Source: Lachnospiraceae bacterium
GTDB taxonomy: Bacteria; Bacillota; Clostridia; Lachnospirales; Lachnospiraceae
Assembly: GCA_017621975.1 (NCBI GenBank)
Contig: JAGARW010000018.1
Coordinates: 1 to 46,382, forward strand
Direction: 5' to 3'
DNA: 46,382 nucleotides
The notes beneath the pieces are model-generated. The model saw only the letters and a list, made by a program, of their open reading frames with translations, made no database searches and was not told the DNA's origin. Shown one piece after another: positions 14,810 through 20,792 of this stretch (position 1 is the stretch's first letter; each line of letters begins with the position of its first letter). A program made the position numbers and the translations under genes.

Positions 14810-15202
14810 ATGGCATTAAAATACAGCCGACAGCGGGAAGCGATCAAGGAATTTCTCTCTACGAGGAAGGATCATCCGACGGCGGATATGGTTTATACAC
14901 AAGTGCGGAAGGAATTCCCGAACATCAGTCTCGGCACGGTTTACCGGAATCTGACGCTGCTTGCGGAGACGGGAGAGATTTCCCGGATCAACGTAGGGGA
15001 CGGGATCGATCATTTCGATCCGGATACATCGGAGCATTATCATTTTCAGTGTAAAAAGTGCGGCTGCGTACAGGATTTAAAACTGGAACATACAGGAAAG
15101 ACCAACGAGCTTGCCGCGATGCAGTTTGACGGAGAAATTATGGGAAGCGTCACTTACTTCTACGGATTGTGCGGAAAATGCAAAGAGGCACGGAATTCAT
15201 AA
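14810..15202 (+). CDS. perR: Fur-superfamily repressor, PerR-like
   Basis: Metal-dependent repressor of 130 aa, probably sensing peroxide. The N-terminal winged helix includes the recognition region [13 protein letters not shown]. The metal-sensing hinge reads [15 protein letters not shown], with the Asp and His set used for regulatory Fe/Mn binding in PerR. Two Cys pairs, CKKCGC and CGKC, make the structural zinc site. AGGAG precedes the ATG at 14810, and a palindrome overlaps the promoter. The next gene, a reverse rubrerythrin, is a peroxide-reducing enzyme, and the perR-rubrerythrin pairing is common in clostridia. Fur or Zur identity cannot be excluded without a structure-based alignment. 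Confidence 0.85.
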
Positions 15203-15258
15203 ATAAAAAGATAAGATATGGGTATTCTTTTAATGAAATCAGGAAAAGGAGAACTCAT

Positions 15259-15798
15259 ATGAAATATGTATGTCAGGTATGCGGTTATGTACATGAAGGA
15301 GATAAGCCGCCGGAAAGATGTCCGGTCTGCAATGCCCCGGCGGAAAAATTCAGGGCGCAGACGGACGGGGACAGTTGGGCCGCAGAGCATGTGGTAGGAA
15401 TTGCAAAAGGCGTCAGCGAGGATATTATGGCGGATCTGCGTGCGAATTTTAACGGAGAATGCTCGGAGGTCGGCATGTATCTTGCGATGGCGAGAGTCGC
15501 TCACAGAGAAGGATATCCTGAAATCGGTCTCTATTGGGAAAAAGCGGCGTGGGAAGAAGCGGAGCATGCGGCAAAATTCGCCGAACTTCTCGGCGAGGTC
15601 GTAACCGATTCGACCAAAAAGAATCTGCAGATGCGCGTCGATGCGGAGAACGGCGCGACGGCGGGCAAGTACGATCTTGCAAAACGCGCGAAAGCCGCGA
15701 ATCTGGACGCGATCCACGACACCGTGCATGAGATGGCAAAGGACGAAGCGCGGCATGGTAAGGCGTTTCGGGGATTGCTGAAACGGTACTTTGGTTAA
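15259..15798 (+). CDS. Reverse rubrerythrin (N-terminal rubredoxin domain)
   Basis: Non-haem iron peroxidase of 179 aa that reduces hydrogen peroxide in the cytoplasm of anaerobes. The rubredoxin domain comes first, with CQVCGY and CPVCNAP as the two Cys pairs, followed by the ferritin-like four-helix domain carrying E-x-x-H motifs (EAEHAAKF and DEARHGKAF) for the di-iron site. This order is the reverse of classical rubrerythrin, which is also present in this window at 28418-28957. AAAAGGAG precedes the ATG at 15259; an in-frame start at 15169 would lie inside the perR-type gene and is rejected. Placement 56 bases after the PerR-like gene suggests peroxide-induced expression. Confidence 0.93.
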
Positions 15799-15963: not shown

Positions 15964-16310
15964 TTATTCCTGCAATAACCAGTTAACTATATAGAAACTG
16001 AATGGGAATACATGAATCTCTATATAACGTCCGGTAAAAAGAGTTGCCAGATCAGCGCTCAATAAAAAAGCATTAGAACCTGTAACGTAAATATCATATT
16101 TTTCTTTGGAGTAAAGACTATTGATTGCCAACTCAAATTGGGACACATCTGGATCTCATCCACGAAAAGGTAGTTCATTCTTTCCGCCTGATAATGTTCC
16201 TCCACATAAGCATGGAGCGCGTGATATTCTTTGAGTTCTTCATATGCCAGATCCATAAAATCAATAAAAATGATATTGATATTTTCAAAATGACTTTTCT
16301 GCGCAGATAC
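15964..16310 (-). pseudogene. Remnant of an AAA ATPase of the DUF4143-linked type
   Basis: Two overlapping minus-strand reading frames together spell the middle of a known ATPase type. The first gives NINIIFIDFMDLAYEELKEY then [14 protein letters not shown], a Walker B-like strand. The second continues [32 protein letters not shown] and [14 protein letters not shown]. The join falls near 16130, so at least one frameshift separates them. The N-terminal P-loop region and the whole C-terminal half are missing. Intact relatives are about 400 aa and of uncertain, often accessory, function. This is a decayed fragment at the border of the accessory zone. Confidence 0.75.
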
Positions 16311-16341
16311 TCTGTTCTCACTATTCTTTTTATATTTTCGC

Positions 16342-16468
16342 TCGCTTTCAAAAAATGAAAATTTTTATTTTTTTGAAACCATCCCTTAAAATTTATTATA
16401 CTTCCGTAAAATAGTATATGTAAGCAGCCGATTTCAAAACTATAATTTTTTTTGCTTTTTGAAAGCGA
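16342..16468. repeat. 127-bp AT-rich segment bounded by a perfect 13-bp inverted repeat
   Basis: TCGCTTTCAAAAA (16342-16354) and TTTTTGAAAGCGA (16456-16468) are exact reverse complements. A second nested palindrome, TTTCAAAAAA / TTTTTTGAAA (16346-16378), lies at the left end. There is no coding sequence inside; the stretch 16311-16543 otherwise shows nothing recognisable. It may be a miniature element or the scar of an insertion into the ATPase gene. Confidence 0.45.
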
Positions 16469-16543: not shown

Positions 16544-17503
16544 TCAGATTCTTACGACAATCTTTCCGTCCACTCTGTGACGATCCATATCCGAGAGCGC
16601 CCTTGCAATATCCGCAAAGGAATAAACGGCTCCCACGGCAGGTTTAATCTGATGCTTTGCAAGAAAGGAAAAAATATCTTCCATGCTCTTCTGCGTGGGA
16701 TAGTTTGAGAAAAATCCGGTCAGGTACACGCCGTTTGGAATCTCCTTGATCGGATCAAAACCATTCAGGGCATATACGCCGCCCAGAATCCCGGTATTGC
16801 AGACAACGCCGCCCGTTTCCACACATCTTAATGTATCCCGAAGCGTTTTCGGACCGACCAGCTCCAATGCCTTTGTTACGCCCCGGAGCGTTCCCGCAAG
16901 AGTTCCGGTATCTAACAGCGCCCTATCTGCATCTTTTAAAAGTTCCAGTTTGTTTTCCCGGTGGGTTGTCGAAATGACTTTACACCCTATCGCCTTTGCA
17001 AGCTGTATCGCCGCATATCCCAGCGCGCAGGTGCCTCCGCGGATCAGCAGAGTATCCTCTTTTTTCAGATGCAGGCACTCAAACAAAGAACCCCAGGCCG
17101 TAAAATACGTTTCCGGAACCGCCGCTATTTCCGTCCATGATAACTCTGTGTGAATGGTAAATACATGGTCTGCCGGAAGCAGCGCGTACTCCGCATAGCT
17201 GCCGTGAAAGCTGCGTCCCATTCCGCCCATGAGCGCGACTACCTTATCGCCTTTTTTGAAATGACTGTCAGACGGGTCGGTAATCTCGCCCGCACATTCG
17301 ATTCCCGGAATAATAGGCTTGTTAATGTAATCCGCCTGAATTTCATTCAGACGCAAAATCTGCTCCGAATGGTTCAGACCAAAGGTTTTTACCGCTACCA
17401 GTACCCACCCCGGACAAACCTGCGGGATGGGAACCTCTGTGATCCGTACCTGCTTTGCAGGAGTTGGCTCTGATAAAATGACGGCTTTCATTGTTCCCGG
17501 CAT
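16544..17503 (-). CDS. Medium-chain dehydrogenase/reductase, zinc-independent quinone oxidoreductase-like
   Basis: NAD(P)H-dependent reductase of the medium-chain superfamily, 319 aa. The N-terminal GroES-like domain contains VKTFGLNHSEQILR and GIECAGEI where zinc enzymes have GHE, and the structural zinc Cys cluster is absent. This fits the quinone oxidoreductase branch. The Rossmann domain follows with IRGGTCALGYAAIQLAKAIG. The ATG at 17503 overlaps the stop of the radical SAM gene by one base (TAATG) behind AGGAGG, so the two are translationally coupled; Met5 (17491) is an alternative start. The tight coupling suggests a role linked to the radical SAM product, but no reaction can be named. 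Confidence 0.85.
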   Translation of the reverse strand: MPGTMKAVILSEPTPAKQVRITEVPIPQVCPGWVLVAVKTFGLNHSEQILRLNEIQADYINKPIIPGIECAGEITDPSDSHFKKGDKVVALMGGMGRSFHGSYAEYALLPADHVFTIHTELSWTEIAAVPETYFTAWGSLFECLHLKKEDTLLIRGGTCALGYAAIQLAKAIGCKVISTTHRENKLELLKDADRALLDTGTLAGTLRGVTKALELVGPKTLRDTLRCVETGGVVCNTGILGGVYALNGFDPIKEIPNGVYLTGFFSNYPTQKSMEDIFSFLAKHQIKPAVGAVYSFADIARALSDMDRHRVDGKIVVRI

Positions 17504-18570
17504 TATACTTCCGCCTCCTTTACTTTATGCCAACACTGCGGGTCTGCCGCATAGAAATTGCCGTTCCTGCCGCTTGCCACAGCCGGACATCCCCGGCACC
17601 ACGCCAACAGCTCGCATTTCGCACATTTTTCAAATTTCCTGTAATCCCGGTAGCATTCCATCCGGCATACCCACACGTTAGCAATTCGATCCTCAAATAC
17701 ATTGCCGACTTTGCTGTTTTGTACCCGGCGGCAGGCGTAAATGTTTCCGGTCGGAAGAATCGTCAAATGACAGTTTCCACAGTTACAGCCGCCGTAAATC
17801 ATGCCTTCTTCCACCGTTTTCGGAATTTTGAAAGCGCCGGTTTCGTATTCATACAACGTCCACAGATGGTCTTTCTTATTGAAGTAGGTTTCACAGCCTG
17901 CCGCTTCATACTCCTTAAATTTCCTGTCACAGGTTTCTAAAAGTTCCCGGTAGCGCAGAGGCGGGATGCCGGTGTCCTTTTCCTCACTGGTCGGGCAGTA
18001 TCGGGCAAACGCAAATACATCCGCTTTGTGAGCGACTACCGTATCAATCATATCGGGAACCTCATCGATGTTCGTGCCGGAAACCGTCGTCATGATGACA
18101 CTGTGGATACCTGCCCTCTTGATGCAGGCAATTTTTTCCAGCGTAATGTCAAAGCTCCCGGGCTTGCGAAACCAATCGTGAGTTTCCCTCATGCCGTCAA
18201 GGGAAAGCTGGTATTTCTGGCAGCCGTACTCTTTCAGTCTCCGGCATACCTCATCATTCAGATGAAAAGGATTGCCGAGAATCGTAAACGGGATGTCATG
18301 CTCTTTCAGAAGCTTCAGCAGTCTCCAGAAATTCGGGTGCAGGATCGGATCGCCGCCTGTAATATAGAAATAAGGCAGGCGGTCATAGACCTGACAGAAA
18401 TCCAGACAGTTGTAAAACGTATCCTGCATCTGTTCCCAATTCATCGCGTCCGGCTTTTTGCAGTTGTTTTCGGAAAAAATGTAGCAGTGTTTACAGCGTT
18501 GGTCGCATTCGTCTGTAATGTGCCACTGAAAAGAGAAGAATTGCTTCGCTTCGGAAAAATATTGTTTCAT
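17503..18570 (-). CDS. Radical SAM/SPASM peptide-modifying enzyme, ACGX-system type
   Basis: Radical S-adenosylmethionine enzyme of 355 aa with an additional SPASM iron-sulfur domain. The SAM cluster motif is CDQRCKHC (Cys22, Cys26, Cys29, C-x3-C-x2-C). TGGDPILHP follows as the GGE-like motif. The last 100 residues hold a Cys-rich SPASM module with CNCGNC, later CAKCELLAWCRGC and a final Cys. Such enzymes install thioether or related crosslinks in ribosomal peptides. The gene for a Cys-rich repeat peptide lies just upstream on the same strand, and I recall this pairing as the ACGX system. AGGAGG precedes the ATG at 18570; an in-frame start at 18645 has no such site. Confidence 0.88.
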   Translation of the reverse strand: MKQYFSEAKQFFSFQWHITDECDQRCKHCYIFSENNCKKPDAMNWEQMQDTFYNCLDFCQVYDRLPYFYITGGDPILHPNFWRLLKLLKEHDIPFTILGNPFHLNDEVCRRLKEYGCQKYQLSLDGMRETHDWFRKPGSFDITLEKIACIKRAGIHSVIMTTVSGTNIDEVPDMIDTVVAHKADVFAFARYCPTSEEKDTGIPPLRYRELLETCDRKFKEYEAAGCETYFNKKDHLWTLYEYETGAFKIPKTVEEGMIYGGCNCGNCHLTILPTGNIYACRRVQNSKVGNVFEDRIANVWVCRMECYRDYRKFEKCAKCELLAWCRGCPAVASGRNGNFYAADPQCWHKVKEAEV

Positions 18571-18592
18571 ATTCTTTGACCTCCTTTTATCG

Positions 18593-18612
18593 GGACTTGC
18601 TTCTGCAAGTCC
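18593..18612 (-). promoter_or_regulatory. Hairpin just upstream of the radical SAM ribosome binding site
   Basis: GGACTTGC and GCAAGTCC form a perfect 8-bp stem with a 4-nt loop, ending about 10 bases before AGGAGG of the radical SAM gene. It could set translation of the enzyme relative to its peptide substrate. Confidence 0.45.
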
Positions 18613-18708
18613 TGGCACGGGATTCGGGTCAGCACCTGCTGACATCCTACCGCTCCGAATTCCTGCGCATCTATCATAAAATCGGACTGACCGAGTAACC
18701 TTTCAGAT

Positions 18709-18739
18709 GTTCCCGGCAGGAGCGTCCCCTGCCGGGAAC
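18709..18739 (-). terminator. Strong hairpin after the ACGX peptide gene, probable attenuator
   Basis: GTTCCCGGCAGG and CCTGCCGGGAAC form a perfect 12-bp stem with a 7-nt loop, 25 bases past the peptide stop. No T tract follows on the minus strand, so it probably protects the peptide mRNA 3' end or pauses polymerase rather than fully terminating. Either would give more peptide than enzyme. Confidence 0.6.
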
Positions 18740-18764
18740 GGAGTTAGCGGGGGAATGGAACGAT

Positions 18765-18947
18765 TTACTTGTCTCCGGCTCCACAGGCAGAACCGCAAGC
18801 AGTGGGCGCTTCAGTCGGCTTGTCTCCGGCTCCGCAGGCAGCAGGTGTTTCCGCAGGTTTGTCAGATGCTCCGCATGCTGTGCCGCAAGCCGCAGCGGGA
18901 GCCGTCTCCGTTTTCTTGTTCCATCCAGACAGATTTGAAAGTGCCAT
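18765..18947 (-). CDS. ACGX-repeat Cys-rich peptide, candidate radical SAM substrate (RiPP precursor)
   Basis: A 60-aa peptide. The N-terminal part MALSNLSGWNKKTETAPA is a plausible leader. The remainder carries five Ala-Cys-Gly-x units, with Cys at positions 21, 25, 38, 51 and 55. They are arranged as a pair, a single and a pair separated by Asp-Lys-Pro and Glu-rich spacers (ASDKPAETPA, GDKPTEAPT). All Cys are in the same Ala-Cys-Gly setting, as expected for repeated modification. GGAGG lies eight bases before the ATG. It is upstream of the radical SAM/SPASM gene on the same strand. No export or protease gene is seen beside it, so the mature product and its fate are open. Confidence 0.85.
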   Translation of the reverse strand: MALSNLSGWNKKTETAPAAACGTACGASDKPAETPAACGAGDKPTEAPTACGSACGAGDK

Positions 18948-19050
18948 AATTTATACCTCCGTATGTTTTATTCAGAGTGCTGTTTGCTCTCTGTATCTAT
19001 CATTTTAAAAATTTTTTTCAGTCTCACAAGTACGCACTTTTTTATAACTC

Positions 19051-19070
19051 AGGTTACCTTTTTGTAACCT
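19051..19070 (-). promoter_or_regulatory. 20-bp palindrome upstream of the ACGX peptide gene, candidate operator
   Basis: AGGTTAC and GTAACCT flank a 6-base pyrimidine-rich centre. It lies about 100 bases upstream of the peptide start, in the position of a promoter-proximal operator. It is GC-richer than its surroundings. No regulator gene sits directly next to it; the HxlR-type gene at 20460 is the nearest DNA-binding protein besides the AbrB antitoxin. Confidence 0.45.
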
Positions 19071-19263: not shown

Positions 19264-19549
19264 TCAGTATTGGAGAAATTCAGCCGGCGTCATAATCATT
19301 GGATTTTTCACGCCGGATTCTAAAAAATCTTTATCGCCGGTCAGTAAAACATCGGCCTTTGCTTCTATGGCTGCCCGAAGAATCGGGCGGTCATTTACAT
19401 CACGGATTTGTGTCTCTGAAATAGTTTCCTCTGTCGGAATCGGAACCAGTTCCAAAGTCAAGAGCGAGGCGGAAAGAAATTTATCCAGGGACGCCGTTTG
19501 CGCTTAGGGCGGCAGAGATCAGGACGTTGGTATCAATCAAAACCCTCAT
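19264..19549 (-). pseudogene. PIN-domain toxin with an internal deletion and frameshift
   Basis: The start at 19549 gives MRVLIDTNVLISAALSANG, the exact N-terminus of a PIN-family toxin including the first catalytic Asp. Soon after, the reading frame hits a stop. In another frame the C-terminal part continues, LDKFLSASLLTLELVPIP, then RDVNDRPILRAAIEA, VLLTGDKDFLESG and MTPAEFL. Compared with remembered family members of about 135 aa, about 40 residues from the middle are gone, including the region of a conserved acidic residue. The start overlaps the antitoxin stop (ATGA). The toxin is therefore almost certainly inactive. Confidence 0.85.
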
Positions 19550-19821
19550 GCGTTCTCGTCCTCATTTCTCAATTCTTTCACAAGTGCCATGACATCATCA
19601 TCGGATGTCAAGCCAGCGCTTTCCGCTTCTCCGACCATCTCCTTTTGGAGTACCTGCATAGCGTAGACGGCAGAATTGACAATGCGGACGGTATTTCCCT
19701 CAACGATAAACGTAATGCGATCACCGCTTGCCACGCCGAGGACTTCCCGAACATCTTTCGGAATTGTGACCTGCCCCTTTGCCATGACTTTTGCATTGTC
19801 TATAAACGTATTTGTTAACAT
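19546..19821 (-). CDS. AbrB/MazE-type antitoxin
   Basis: A 91-aa protein with a SpoVT-AbrB swapped-hairpin DNA-binding domain at residues 10-50 (AKGQVTIPKDVREVLGV, then GDRITFIVEGNTVRIV). The acidic tail would wrap the partner toxin. It is intact while the toxin gene it overlaps by four bases is deleted internally, so it is now an orphan antitoxin. AAAGGTGG lies upstream of the ATG at 19821. A perfect 22-bp palindrome sits next to its -10 box and is the likely autoregulatory operator. It could still repress related toxin operons elsewhere (inference). Confidence 0.87.
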   Translation of the reverse strand: MLTNTFIDNAKVMAKGQVTIPKDVREVLGVASGDRITFIVEGNTVRIVNSAVYAMQVLQKEMVGEAESAGLTSDDDVMALVKELRNEDENA

Positions 19822-20381: not shown

Positions 20382-20459
20382 TATAATGAATGTAACATCA
20401 CAAACGAATGTACCATATAAAATCAAATGTGTTAAAATGATTTGGGAGGTGTGCTTGCG

Positions 20460-20792
20460 ATGAAAACCAAAGATGAGTTACCGGCTTGTCCCGTGGCGAC
20501 TACAGTGCAGCTGATCGGAAGCAAATGGAAGCTGTTGATTATGCGTAATCTGCTTGTCCGTCCGTGGCGCTTTAATGAGCTCCAAAAAAATTTAGAGGGA
20601 ATCAGTCAGAAGGTGCTGACCGACAGCCTGCGTTCTATGGAGTCAGACGGAATTATCACCCGAACAGTCTATCCGGAAGTCCCGCCGAGAGTAGAATACG
20701 CATTGAGTGAATTAGGAGAATCTATGCGGCCAATCATAAGCGCAATGGAACAATGGGGTATGTCTTATAAAAGTAGCGCAAAGAAAGCGTAA
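20460..20792 (+). CDS. HxlR-family winged-helix transcriptional regulator
   Basis: A 110-aa regulator. The N-terminal ACPVATTVQLIGSKWKLLI is the family hallmark, including the conserved Cys before the first helix. The HTH follows with FNELQKNLEGISQKVLTDSLRSME. The wing ends RVEYALSELG. HxlR proteins respond to aldehydes, oxidants or disulfide stress, often through that Cys. GGGAGG lies ten bases before the ATG at 20460, which is preferred over an in-frame TTG at 20442 that overlaps the site. It starts just downstream of the foldback element, whose outer end lies within its promoter region. The beta-helix lipoprotein gene follows 42 bases after it. Confidence 0.9.
   Translation: MKTKDELPACPVATTVQLIGSKWKLLIMRNLLVRPWRFNELQKNLEGISQKVLTDSLRSMESDGIITRTVYPEVPPRVEYALSELGESMRPIISAMEQWGMSYKSSAKKA

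Follow-up and report, generated by a model that had tools for sequence, protein, structure and literature searches.

The stretch of DNA analyzed here, which we call the window, is the 46,382-nt contig JAGARW010000018.1 of a Lachnospiraceae bacterium (GenBank assembly GCA_017621975.1). Its minus strand carries genes for a small peptide of the ACGX family, a radical SAM (rSAM)/SPASM maturase and a medium-chain reductase (MDR), to which we refer together as the ACGX cassette (Table 1). The ACGX family of ribosomally synthesized and post-translationally modified peptides (RiPPs) has been named, but we found no function for it. An original prediction, made from the sequence of the window alone, had described a 60-aa peptide with five ACGx units, an rSAM/SPASM enzyme and a one-base overlap between the maturase stop and the MDR start, and all three are confirmed. 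It had also assigned the peptide-enzyme pair to the ACGX system; the two genes are adjacent and both proteins score well over the curated NCBI cut-offs (28 bits for TIGR04341, of which the peptide covers positions 1-65 of 65, and 400 bits for TIGR04340). The maturase starts at the ATG at 18570, which follows an AGGAGG, while the mechanical open reading frame (ORF) extends to 18645. A literature search for ACGX together with radical SAM, or for the names of the two models, found no publication, in agreement with the remark in the original prediction that the chemistry was not known to have been worked out. What was already known is thus the ACGX family as NCBIfam models; to this we add the exchange of reductases, a hairpin (18709-18739), an operator with its promoter (about 19000-19060), an HxlR regulator gene apparently displaced to 20442-20792 and a link to class-M sirtuins (SirTM). 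The hairpin, operator/promoter and regulator gene had been overlooked by the original prediction.

Table 1. Features of the ACGX cassette and its upstream region in the window.
Feature	Position	Strand	Description and evidence
ACGX precursor peptide	18765..18947	-	60 aa, MALSNLSGWNKK N-terminal, five ACGx units; TIGR04341 62.6 bits
rSAM/SPASM maturase, ACGX family	17503..18570	-	355 aa; TIGR04340 603.9 bits; PF04055 and SPASM
MDR reductase, quinone-oxidoreductase-like	16544..17503	-	319 aa; PF08240/PF00107; TAATG overlap with maturase stop
14-bp hairpin between peptide and maturase genes, without U tract	18709..18739	-	folding of the intergenic sequence
Conserved operator-like element GTNAC ... 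GTGCGTACTTGT	19028..19057	- (minus-strand reading)	conservation across loci
Putative sigma-70 promoter TTGTGA-16-TAAAAT, at operator edge	19002..19029	-	consensus match
HxlR/DUF24-family regulator, N-terminal CPV motif	20442..20792	+	PF01638 109.6 bits; likely ATG 20460
Insert between cassette and HxlR gene	19264..19818	-	MazE/AbrB-like antitoxin 19546-19818; C-terminal PIN remnant 19264-19461

The ACGX cassette and its reductase slot

We analyzed 107 oriented loci: the best 80 of 465 maturase relatives in named bacterial genomes (81-88% identical, mostly from Lachnospiraceae and Oscillospiraceae), 26 loci from a search of genomes of the window's order, and the window itself. The best 80 over-represent metagenome bins of these two families, and the 26 order-wide loci are less biased. 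A duplicate of the window (L013), loci with less than 40% identity (L036-L038) and loci with insufficient flank were removed before counting, and L035 was excluded from adjacency counts. Genes were called mechanically as ORFs of at least 60 aa, and most neighbor clusters were named by eye. Two bins, of Bacteroides (L077) and Brocadia (L086), are probably binning errors. The ACGX maturase exceeds its model cut-off in 26 of 392 genomes of the order, the window's own included, and the peptide exceeds its cut-off in 8 of 398 genomes of a phylum sample. A phage origin was rejected, as a scan of viral contigs found no relative of the maturase.

The cassette is conserved across these loci. A peptide gene lies 5' of the maturase gene in 95 of the 99 loci for which 500 nt or more of upstream sequence are available; 90 were found by pattern and five by reading (L016, L033, L066, L077 and L109). 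The other four are L047, in which none was seen, L076, which is cut short, L032, whose maturase gene has an internal TGA, and L035, whose maturase is 43% identical and has a long N-terminal extension. Within 1.2 kb after the maturase gene, 60 of the 96 loci with that much sequence downstream have a gene of the FMN nitroreductase family (NTR; PF00881) and 29 have an MDR gene, while none has both and seven have neither. With a peptide in 95 of 99 loci and one or the other reductase in 89 of 96, the occurrence of the cassette is not due to chance.

These counts modify the view, put forward in the original prediction, that the MDR is a third pathway component in strict translational coupling with the maturase. 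Some reductase does belong to the cassette, but the MDR is not its constant partner (29 of 96), and coupling is common without being strict (of 22 MDR starts that could be measured, 13 overlap the maturase stop). Absence of the MDR beside most maturase homologs had been set beforehand as one half of the refuting result, and it is indeed missing within 1.2 kb in 67 of 96 loci. However, because 60 of these 67 carry a nitroreductase-family gene and none carries both, we do not take this absence as refuting.

The two reductases appear to substitute for one another. Their mutual exclusion behind the maturase is pronounced (Fisher p = 2.7e-18, an optimistic value because the loci are related), and most lie within 150 nt of the maturase gene (58 NTR and 23 MDR). 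On a maturase tree with 99 rows, the reductase label changes 17 times by parsimony, with at least nine changes forced by well-supported branches. We also compared the 26 ACGX genomes of the order with 26 control genomes that lack ACGX, hand-picked down the order-wide list and thus not random. The NTR subfamily (E <= 1e-30) is present in 17 of 26 ACGX genomes and none of the controls, and the MDR subfamily (E <= 1e-60) in 9 of 26 and in one control, the latter a partial match. At least one of the two is found in 25 of 26 ACGX genomes; the sole exception, G345, has a maturase gene with an internal stop. Judging from gene order and co-occurrence, the reductase slot is an integral part of the ACGX system that two unrelated enzymes fill, and it is the reductase step, not specifically the MDR, that belongs to it. 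An integral slot with two unrelated occupants suits a generic hydride step, on the peptide, a quinone or an electrophile, better than a specific one-electron donor.

These data also bear on two other accounts of the reductase. It could be an unrelated stress gene, present as a fellow member of the regulon or as a hitch-hiker, the peptide having another role such as signaling. The 67 loci without an MDR nearby would suit this account, as would the seven with neither reductase downstream, of which two (L019 and L085) have the MDR upstream instead and five have neither near. Given that one of the two subfamilies is present in 25 of 26 ACGX genomes versus 1 of 26 controls and that the two exclude each other behind the maturase, we consider it improbable. 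Alternatively, the reductase could be a tailoring enzyme that reduces a dehydro or oxidized residue made by the maturase in the peptide, for which LtnJ, an MDR-type LanJ reductase, is a model. The close placement behind the maturase, with its 13 of 22 overlapping starts, and the repeated replacement by an unrelated flavoenzyme family are what one would expect of such an enzyme. Against it, no dehydratase was noticed among recurrent neighbors named by eye, we know of no rSAM/SPASM enzyme of the ACGX kind that leaves dehydro residues, and reductases of this sort detoxify quinone and diamide in the YodB regulon of Bacillus subtilis (PMC6943732; this and the other papers given by PMC number are cited from excerpts). 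We regard tailoring as possible but doubtful.

The MDR of the window probably represents a subfamily separate from PIG3, judging by its best NCBIfam match (TIGR02824, 162.5 bits), which is under the 296.8 cut-off; it reaches no curated cut-off. Its nearest solved relative is a quinone oxidoreductase (PDB 4dup). It has LNHSE at the usual zinc position, which we take to mean that it lacks the catalytic-zinc motif.

The repeat unit and the predicted chemistry of the maturase

The peptides share a repeated cysteine context. The patterns used to find them required Cys-Gly and, for the set of 88 distinct peptides, also an early Trp, so that these features are partly built in; repeats arise by duplication, and counts of Cys contexts are interdependent. 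With these limits, the 88 peptides range from 30 to 142 aa with 2-15 Cys, and Gly follows 548 of 553 Cys. The position four residues after Cys, which was not built into the pattern, is Asp in 279 and Cys in 249 of 553 cases, and 87 of 88 peptides have at least one C-x3-D motif. Three of the five ACGx units in the window peptide are C-x3-D, as are all three Cys of L033, the most divergent locus with a peptide (maturase 49% identical). From these counts the peptide unit is plainly A-C-G-x-x-D, with doubling as C-x3-C an option.

Such a unit recalls the ranthipeptide freyrasin (PapA/PapB), in which Cys-x3-Asp is likewise repeated beside an rSAM maturase and PapB links the Cys sulfur to the Asp C-beta within C-x3-D (PMC9413430). 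ACGX differs in its fixed A-C-G context, its additional C-x3-C units and its redox-type regulator, and its maturase reaches 61.2 bits with the PapB equivalog profile NF047865 (cut-off 340). The maturase itself is well conserved, with the CX3CX2C motif and the SPASM cysteines retained in 99-101 of 101 relatives. Its best profile outside the ACGX family is that of SbtM (TIGR04082; 168.4 bits over positions 196-504 of 516, with a cut-off of 350), and Cys-Gly substrates of the SbtM/SbtA kind would be plausible in ACGX. The SbtM model is longer than the ACGX model (516 versus 341 positions). Among solved structures, sequence matches are to what we take to be CteB (5wgg, 48 bits), SkfB (6efn, 42 bits) and, in two weak entries, cytosylglucuronate decarboxylase (33 bits). 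More distant homologs of the maturase (L035-L038 and L130-L132, 26-43% identical) have other neighbors and no ACGX peptide by the pattern used, and we rejected them as uninformative for the chemistry.

Based on the Asp in the repeat, we tentatively predict a Cys-Asp thioether as the product, giving it a little less than an even chance. A thiooxazole, which SbtM forms with the loss of four hydrogens (PMC11002830), is possible but a good deal less probable, and the remaining share falls to products of neither kind. The SbtM family has been tied to selenocysteine (PMC11002830); ACGX peptides were translated here with ordinary Cys, and no search for a selenocysteine signal was made.

The thiooxazole is part of a different account of the whole system, in which an SbtM-type maturase acts at Cys-Gly, the product is an intracellular metal binder (compare bufferins and bulbicupramide) and the reductases keep thiols or metal reduced. 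The SbtM match speaks for this, as does Cys-Gly at 527 of 534 Cys in the peptide set found by the CG pattern, where it is partly built in. Thiooxazole peptides made by MNIO enzymes have Lys-Cys-Gly sites, a likeness to the Cys-Gly of ACGX, and multi-repeat Cys peptides without a nearby protease have been proposed as possible intracellular copper binders (PMC12538549). However, the 168 bits are far under the SbtM cut-off, no metal regulator or transporter was noticed among recurrent neighbors named by eye, the Asp at +4 would be superfluous for thiooxazoles (269 of 327 Asp have a Cys at -4) and the operator is associated with a redox-type HxlR regulator. We therefore consider this account rather unlikely.

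Finally, gene clusters for secreted bacteriocins or quorum peptides of the sactipeptide or ranthipeptide type are usually laid out in this way, with an rSAM enzyme and a small Cys-rich precursor. The original prediction had noted that no exporter or protease is nearby, and the neighbor clusters of at least five loci, named by eye, include no exporter, protease or immunity family with a constant position. A MATE-like transporter occurs in 10 loci, scattered and on both strands, only 2 of 88 peptides have a run of at least nine hydrophobic or small residues within the first 40 positions, and the regulator is of a stress type. A secreted product is thus very improbable.

The operator, the HxlR regulator and the hairpin

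A conserved element precedes the cassette. Of 88 loci, 82 have GTGCNTWCTT in the 200 nt that precede the peptide gene, usually some 90 nt from its ATG, and in 66 a GTNAC-type repeat is found upstream as well; both strands of all loci contain 102 occurrences in 1.36 Mb. In 76 of the 89 loci whose upstream flank is 1.4 kb or longer, a divergent HxlR-family gene is found within 3 kb, and in 68 of 89 it is within 1.4 kb of the maturase start. The motif and the HxlR gene tend to occur together (both in 70 loci, HxlR only in 2, motif only in 6, neither in 3; p = 0.009), from which we infer that HxlR binds the operator. The three loci with neither (L075, L100 and L117) have another promoter, TTGACA/TATACT, which comes with a dyad of the GTTGTAAT type. 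An Rrf2-like cluster (by eye) is found in five loci including L100, where the redox regulator has apparently been swapped. In the window, the HxlR gene lies about 2.2 kb from the maturase start. It is intact, its product shares 88.7% identity with the divergent HxlR of L088, and it was apparently moved away from the cassette by a toxin-antitoxin-like insert. The insert probably represents a decayed toxin-antitoxin insertion outside the ACGX system (MazE/AbrB-like antitoxin and PIN remnant, the latter a weak match at 23.6 bits, below the Pfam cut-off).

The N-terminal CPV motif is present in 77 of 85 HxlR homologs. Members of the DUF24/HxlR family use a conserved Cys to detect quinones, diamide, HOCl or aldehydes, and they regulate nitro- and azoreductases (PMC6943732, PMC7835342). 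The YodB, HypR and HxlR regulons of Bacillus subtilis resemble the ACGX loci in placing a Cys-bearing regulator over such reductase genes; RiPP or ADP-ribosylation genes are not mentioned for them in the excerpts of the paper cited (PMC6943732).

The operator also marks a second kind of operon. The pattern AAGTACGCAC-N12-18-GTYAC has exactly two sites in the window's 85%-complete assembly, one at the ACGX cassette and one at an operon with SirTM on contig C192. In 200 genomes of the family there are 31 operator sites versus 9 for a reversed control pattern, and in 385 genomes of the order 40 versus 10. We read 30 of the family sites: an ACGX maturase gene lies downstream of 12 (the window and L139, which has a partial maturase only, among them), a SirTM, macrodomain or PNPOx operon without ACGX downstream of 8 (including that on C192), HxlR only at 1 and none of these at 9. 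A further 28 sites from the order gave 9, 6 and 5 (one of the five, L199, with an ACGX peptide) in the same classes and 8 others. Among the last eight, L192 has an ACGX peptide, L189 is flanked by nitroreductase and HxlR genes on one side and by divergent macrodomain and SirTM genes on the other, and at four sites a small PNPOx-like gene follows at some distance (by eye). In these four (L176, L181, L185 and L187) the operator is about 1.2 kb before the PNPOx-like gene, with a longer ORF between in three, and L202 and L203 each carry a cupin-like gene together with HxlR; both kinds of gene are possible further members of the regulon. L199 (contig C14 of G323) and L192 (contig C55 of G128) may hold orphan precursors, an ACGX peptide behind the operator with the maturase missing from the 3 kb read; G323 has a complete cassette elsewhere, and G128 has no ACGX maturase above the cut-off.

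Between the peptide and maturase genes, the intergenic stretch folds into a hairpin with z = -4.17. A perfect stem of at least nine pairs is present in 57 of 88 loci versus 3 of 88 after one shuffle each, and the hairpin probably stabilizes the mRNA or acts as an attenuator that sets the ratio of peptide to enzyme. Promoter and terminator scans gave numbers of matches no better than shuffles, and promoter-like spacing is similar across loci by eye.

The SirTM/macrodomain arm and the proposed redox role

Genes for protein ADP-ribosylation recur near the cassette as well. Among the 56 loci whose downstream flank reaches 5 kb or more, 35 have a PNPOx-ferredoxin gene, 23 a macrodomain gene, 34 a sirtuin gene and 42 at least one of these. 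The sirtuin is of class M (a representative matches PDB 5a3a with E = 6.2e-72, and QG replaces HG in 42 of 42), and the macrodomain, which accompanies it in 22 of the 34 loci and in the window's own genome, is of the zinc type (NF003163, 356.8 bits for a representative versus a cut-off of 272; nearest solved chain 8rsi). The Zn-loop pattern (Cys/His) is found in 24 of 32 macrodomains, with close variants by eye in the other eight. The C192 operon (L125, 1471-5309), the second HxlR operon of the assembly, encodes a PNPOx-like protein, an ECF-type transporter component (PF12822), a PNPOx-ferredoxin, a Zn-macrodomain and SirTM; no GcvH-like gene was seen in it. Across genomes, PNPOx-ferredoxin of the ACGX type (>170 bits) is present in 16 of 26 with ACGX versus 0 of 26 controls, and SirTM (>150 bits) in 19 versus 10 of 26. 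Our literature search found no publication that links SirTM with radical SAM, and none with HxlR among the main SirTM papers, so that as far as the search reaches the link between SirTM and ACGX is new.

In the SirTM operon described in other Firmicutes, SirTM attaches ADP-ribose to GcvH-L and the zinc macrodomain removes it, lipoylated GcvH-L interacts with the flavin reductase OYE, and a role in redox stress has been proposed (PMC4518038, PMC11490716). Both that extended operon (GcvH-L, LplA2, SirTM, Zn-macrodomain, OYE and LLM) and the proposed ACGX system would place a small sulfur-bearing carrier beside flavin-type oxidoreductases, a class-M sirtuin and a zinc macrodomain, with redox stress as the common theme. 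They differ in that ACGX has other reductases and the HxlR operator, its carrier would be an rSAM-modified repeat peptide instead of a lipoylated protein, and a clear GcvH is lacking in 18 of the 19 ACGX genomes with SirTM (LplA2 was not searched for). The one clear GCV_H match (129 bits) is in G151, on another contig; eight of the 19 genomes have weak partial matches (19.8-25.6 bits), perhaps to biotinyl or lipoyl domains of other proteins, and ten have none. The excerpts of one report (PMC11490716) give GcvH-L as the only known SirTM substrate and state that it is not known which targets SirTM/Zn-macrodomain pairs have outside the lipoyl operon. Given that a clear GcvH is present in 1 of 19, SirTM probably has another target in ACGX genomes, and the co-regulated, Cys- and Asp-rich peptide suggests itself as a candidate.

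The HxlR operator regulon and the SirTM/macrodomain arm, both missed by the original prediction, point to redox stress. Because DUF24/HxlR regulators sense electrophiles through Cys and because the SirTM operon offers a precedent, we propose that the ACGX cassette encodes an intracellular, HxlR-regulated RiPP for handling redox stress or electrophiles, a proposal to which we give slightly better than an even chance. In this model, HxlR would use its N-terminal Cys to sense an electrophile or oxidant and would induce the cassette in response. The target of the maturase would be the Cys in every ACGxxD unit, which it would most likely join to the Asp C-beta as a thioether, with some Cys left as thiols. 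The modified peptide would stay in the cell as a sulfur-based carrier or scavenger of redox equivalents or electrophiles, and the reductase would regenerate it or reduce the same electrophiles. In many hosts, PNPOx-ferredoxin would supply electrons and SirTM with the Zn-macrodomain would provide reversible ADP-ribosylation, by analogy with the lipoyl-GcvH-L/OYE/SirTM/macrodomain operon. A bolder and unlikely extension is that in Clostridia the peptide is itself carrier and SirTM substrate, a multi-copy sulfur redox cofactor that replaces lipoyl-GcvH-L, is loaded or regenerated by the MDR or FMN reductases and is switched off and on by SirTM/Zn-macrodomain under HxlR control; the Asp residues of the repeats would perhaps be the sites of ADP-ribosylation.

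Several points weigh against this proposal. The literature search found no biochemistry for any step of the pathway, and the predicted binding of HxlR to the operator is drawn from co-occurrence, with an insert parting the two in the window. At 8 of the 28 newly read order-wide sites, among them L192 and L189 as described above, a script detected none of the genes expected downstream, so that the operator motif also occurs outside the two arms. In addition, 14 of 56 loci, the window among them, have no PNPOx-ferredoxin, macrodomain or SirTM gene downstream. SirTM in 10 of 26 genomes without ACGX means that ADP-ribosylation may merely share the regulator, and since five of the eight weak GCV_H matches exceed the Pfam cut-off of 22.2 bits, a divergent carrier is possible. 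By homology the thioether is the weaker half, because the nearest characterized maturase profile is that of SbtM, not PapB. Lastly, G151 has both reductases, with the NTR upstream of the peptide gene.

Taken together, the data suggest that the ACGX cassette may help gut Clostridia to cope with redox stress inside the cell and may be linked to a switch based on protein ADP-ribosylation. If so, common gut bacteria would use a modified peptide inside the cell as a redox tool instead of exporting it, and one of its steps would be filled by two unrelated reductases. The common operator joins two orphans, ACGX and the SirTM/Zn-macrodomain pair, and each is a testable lead for the other.

A few neighboring genes deserve mention. 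Just downstream of the cassette, at 14810-15798 of the window, are genes for a Fur/PerR-type regulator and a rubrerythrin, which are likewise oxidative-stress genes; neither family is among the recurrent neighbors of the relatives, by eye. L088 has, 1 kb beyond its MDR gene, a gene for a ferredoxin-nitroreductase-like fusion that the NTR query did not match. AAA_14/DUF4143 ATPase-like fragments (by eye) lie at 15964-16351 of the window and an intact copy lies beside the SirTM operon (L125, 6290-7585), probably by coincidence. In seven loci (L051, L067, L068, L078, L082, L099 and L106), a DUF5131 protein that weakly matches 'radical SAM mobile pair protein A' is encoded 2.5-4.7 kb after the maturase start.

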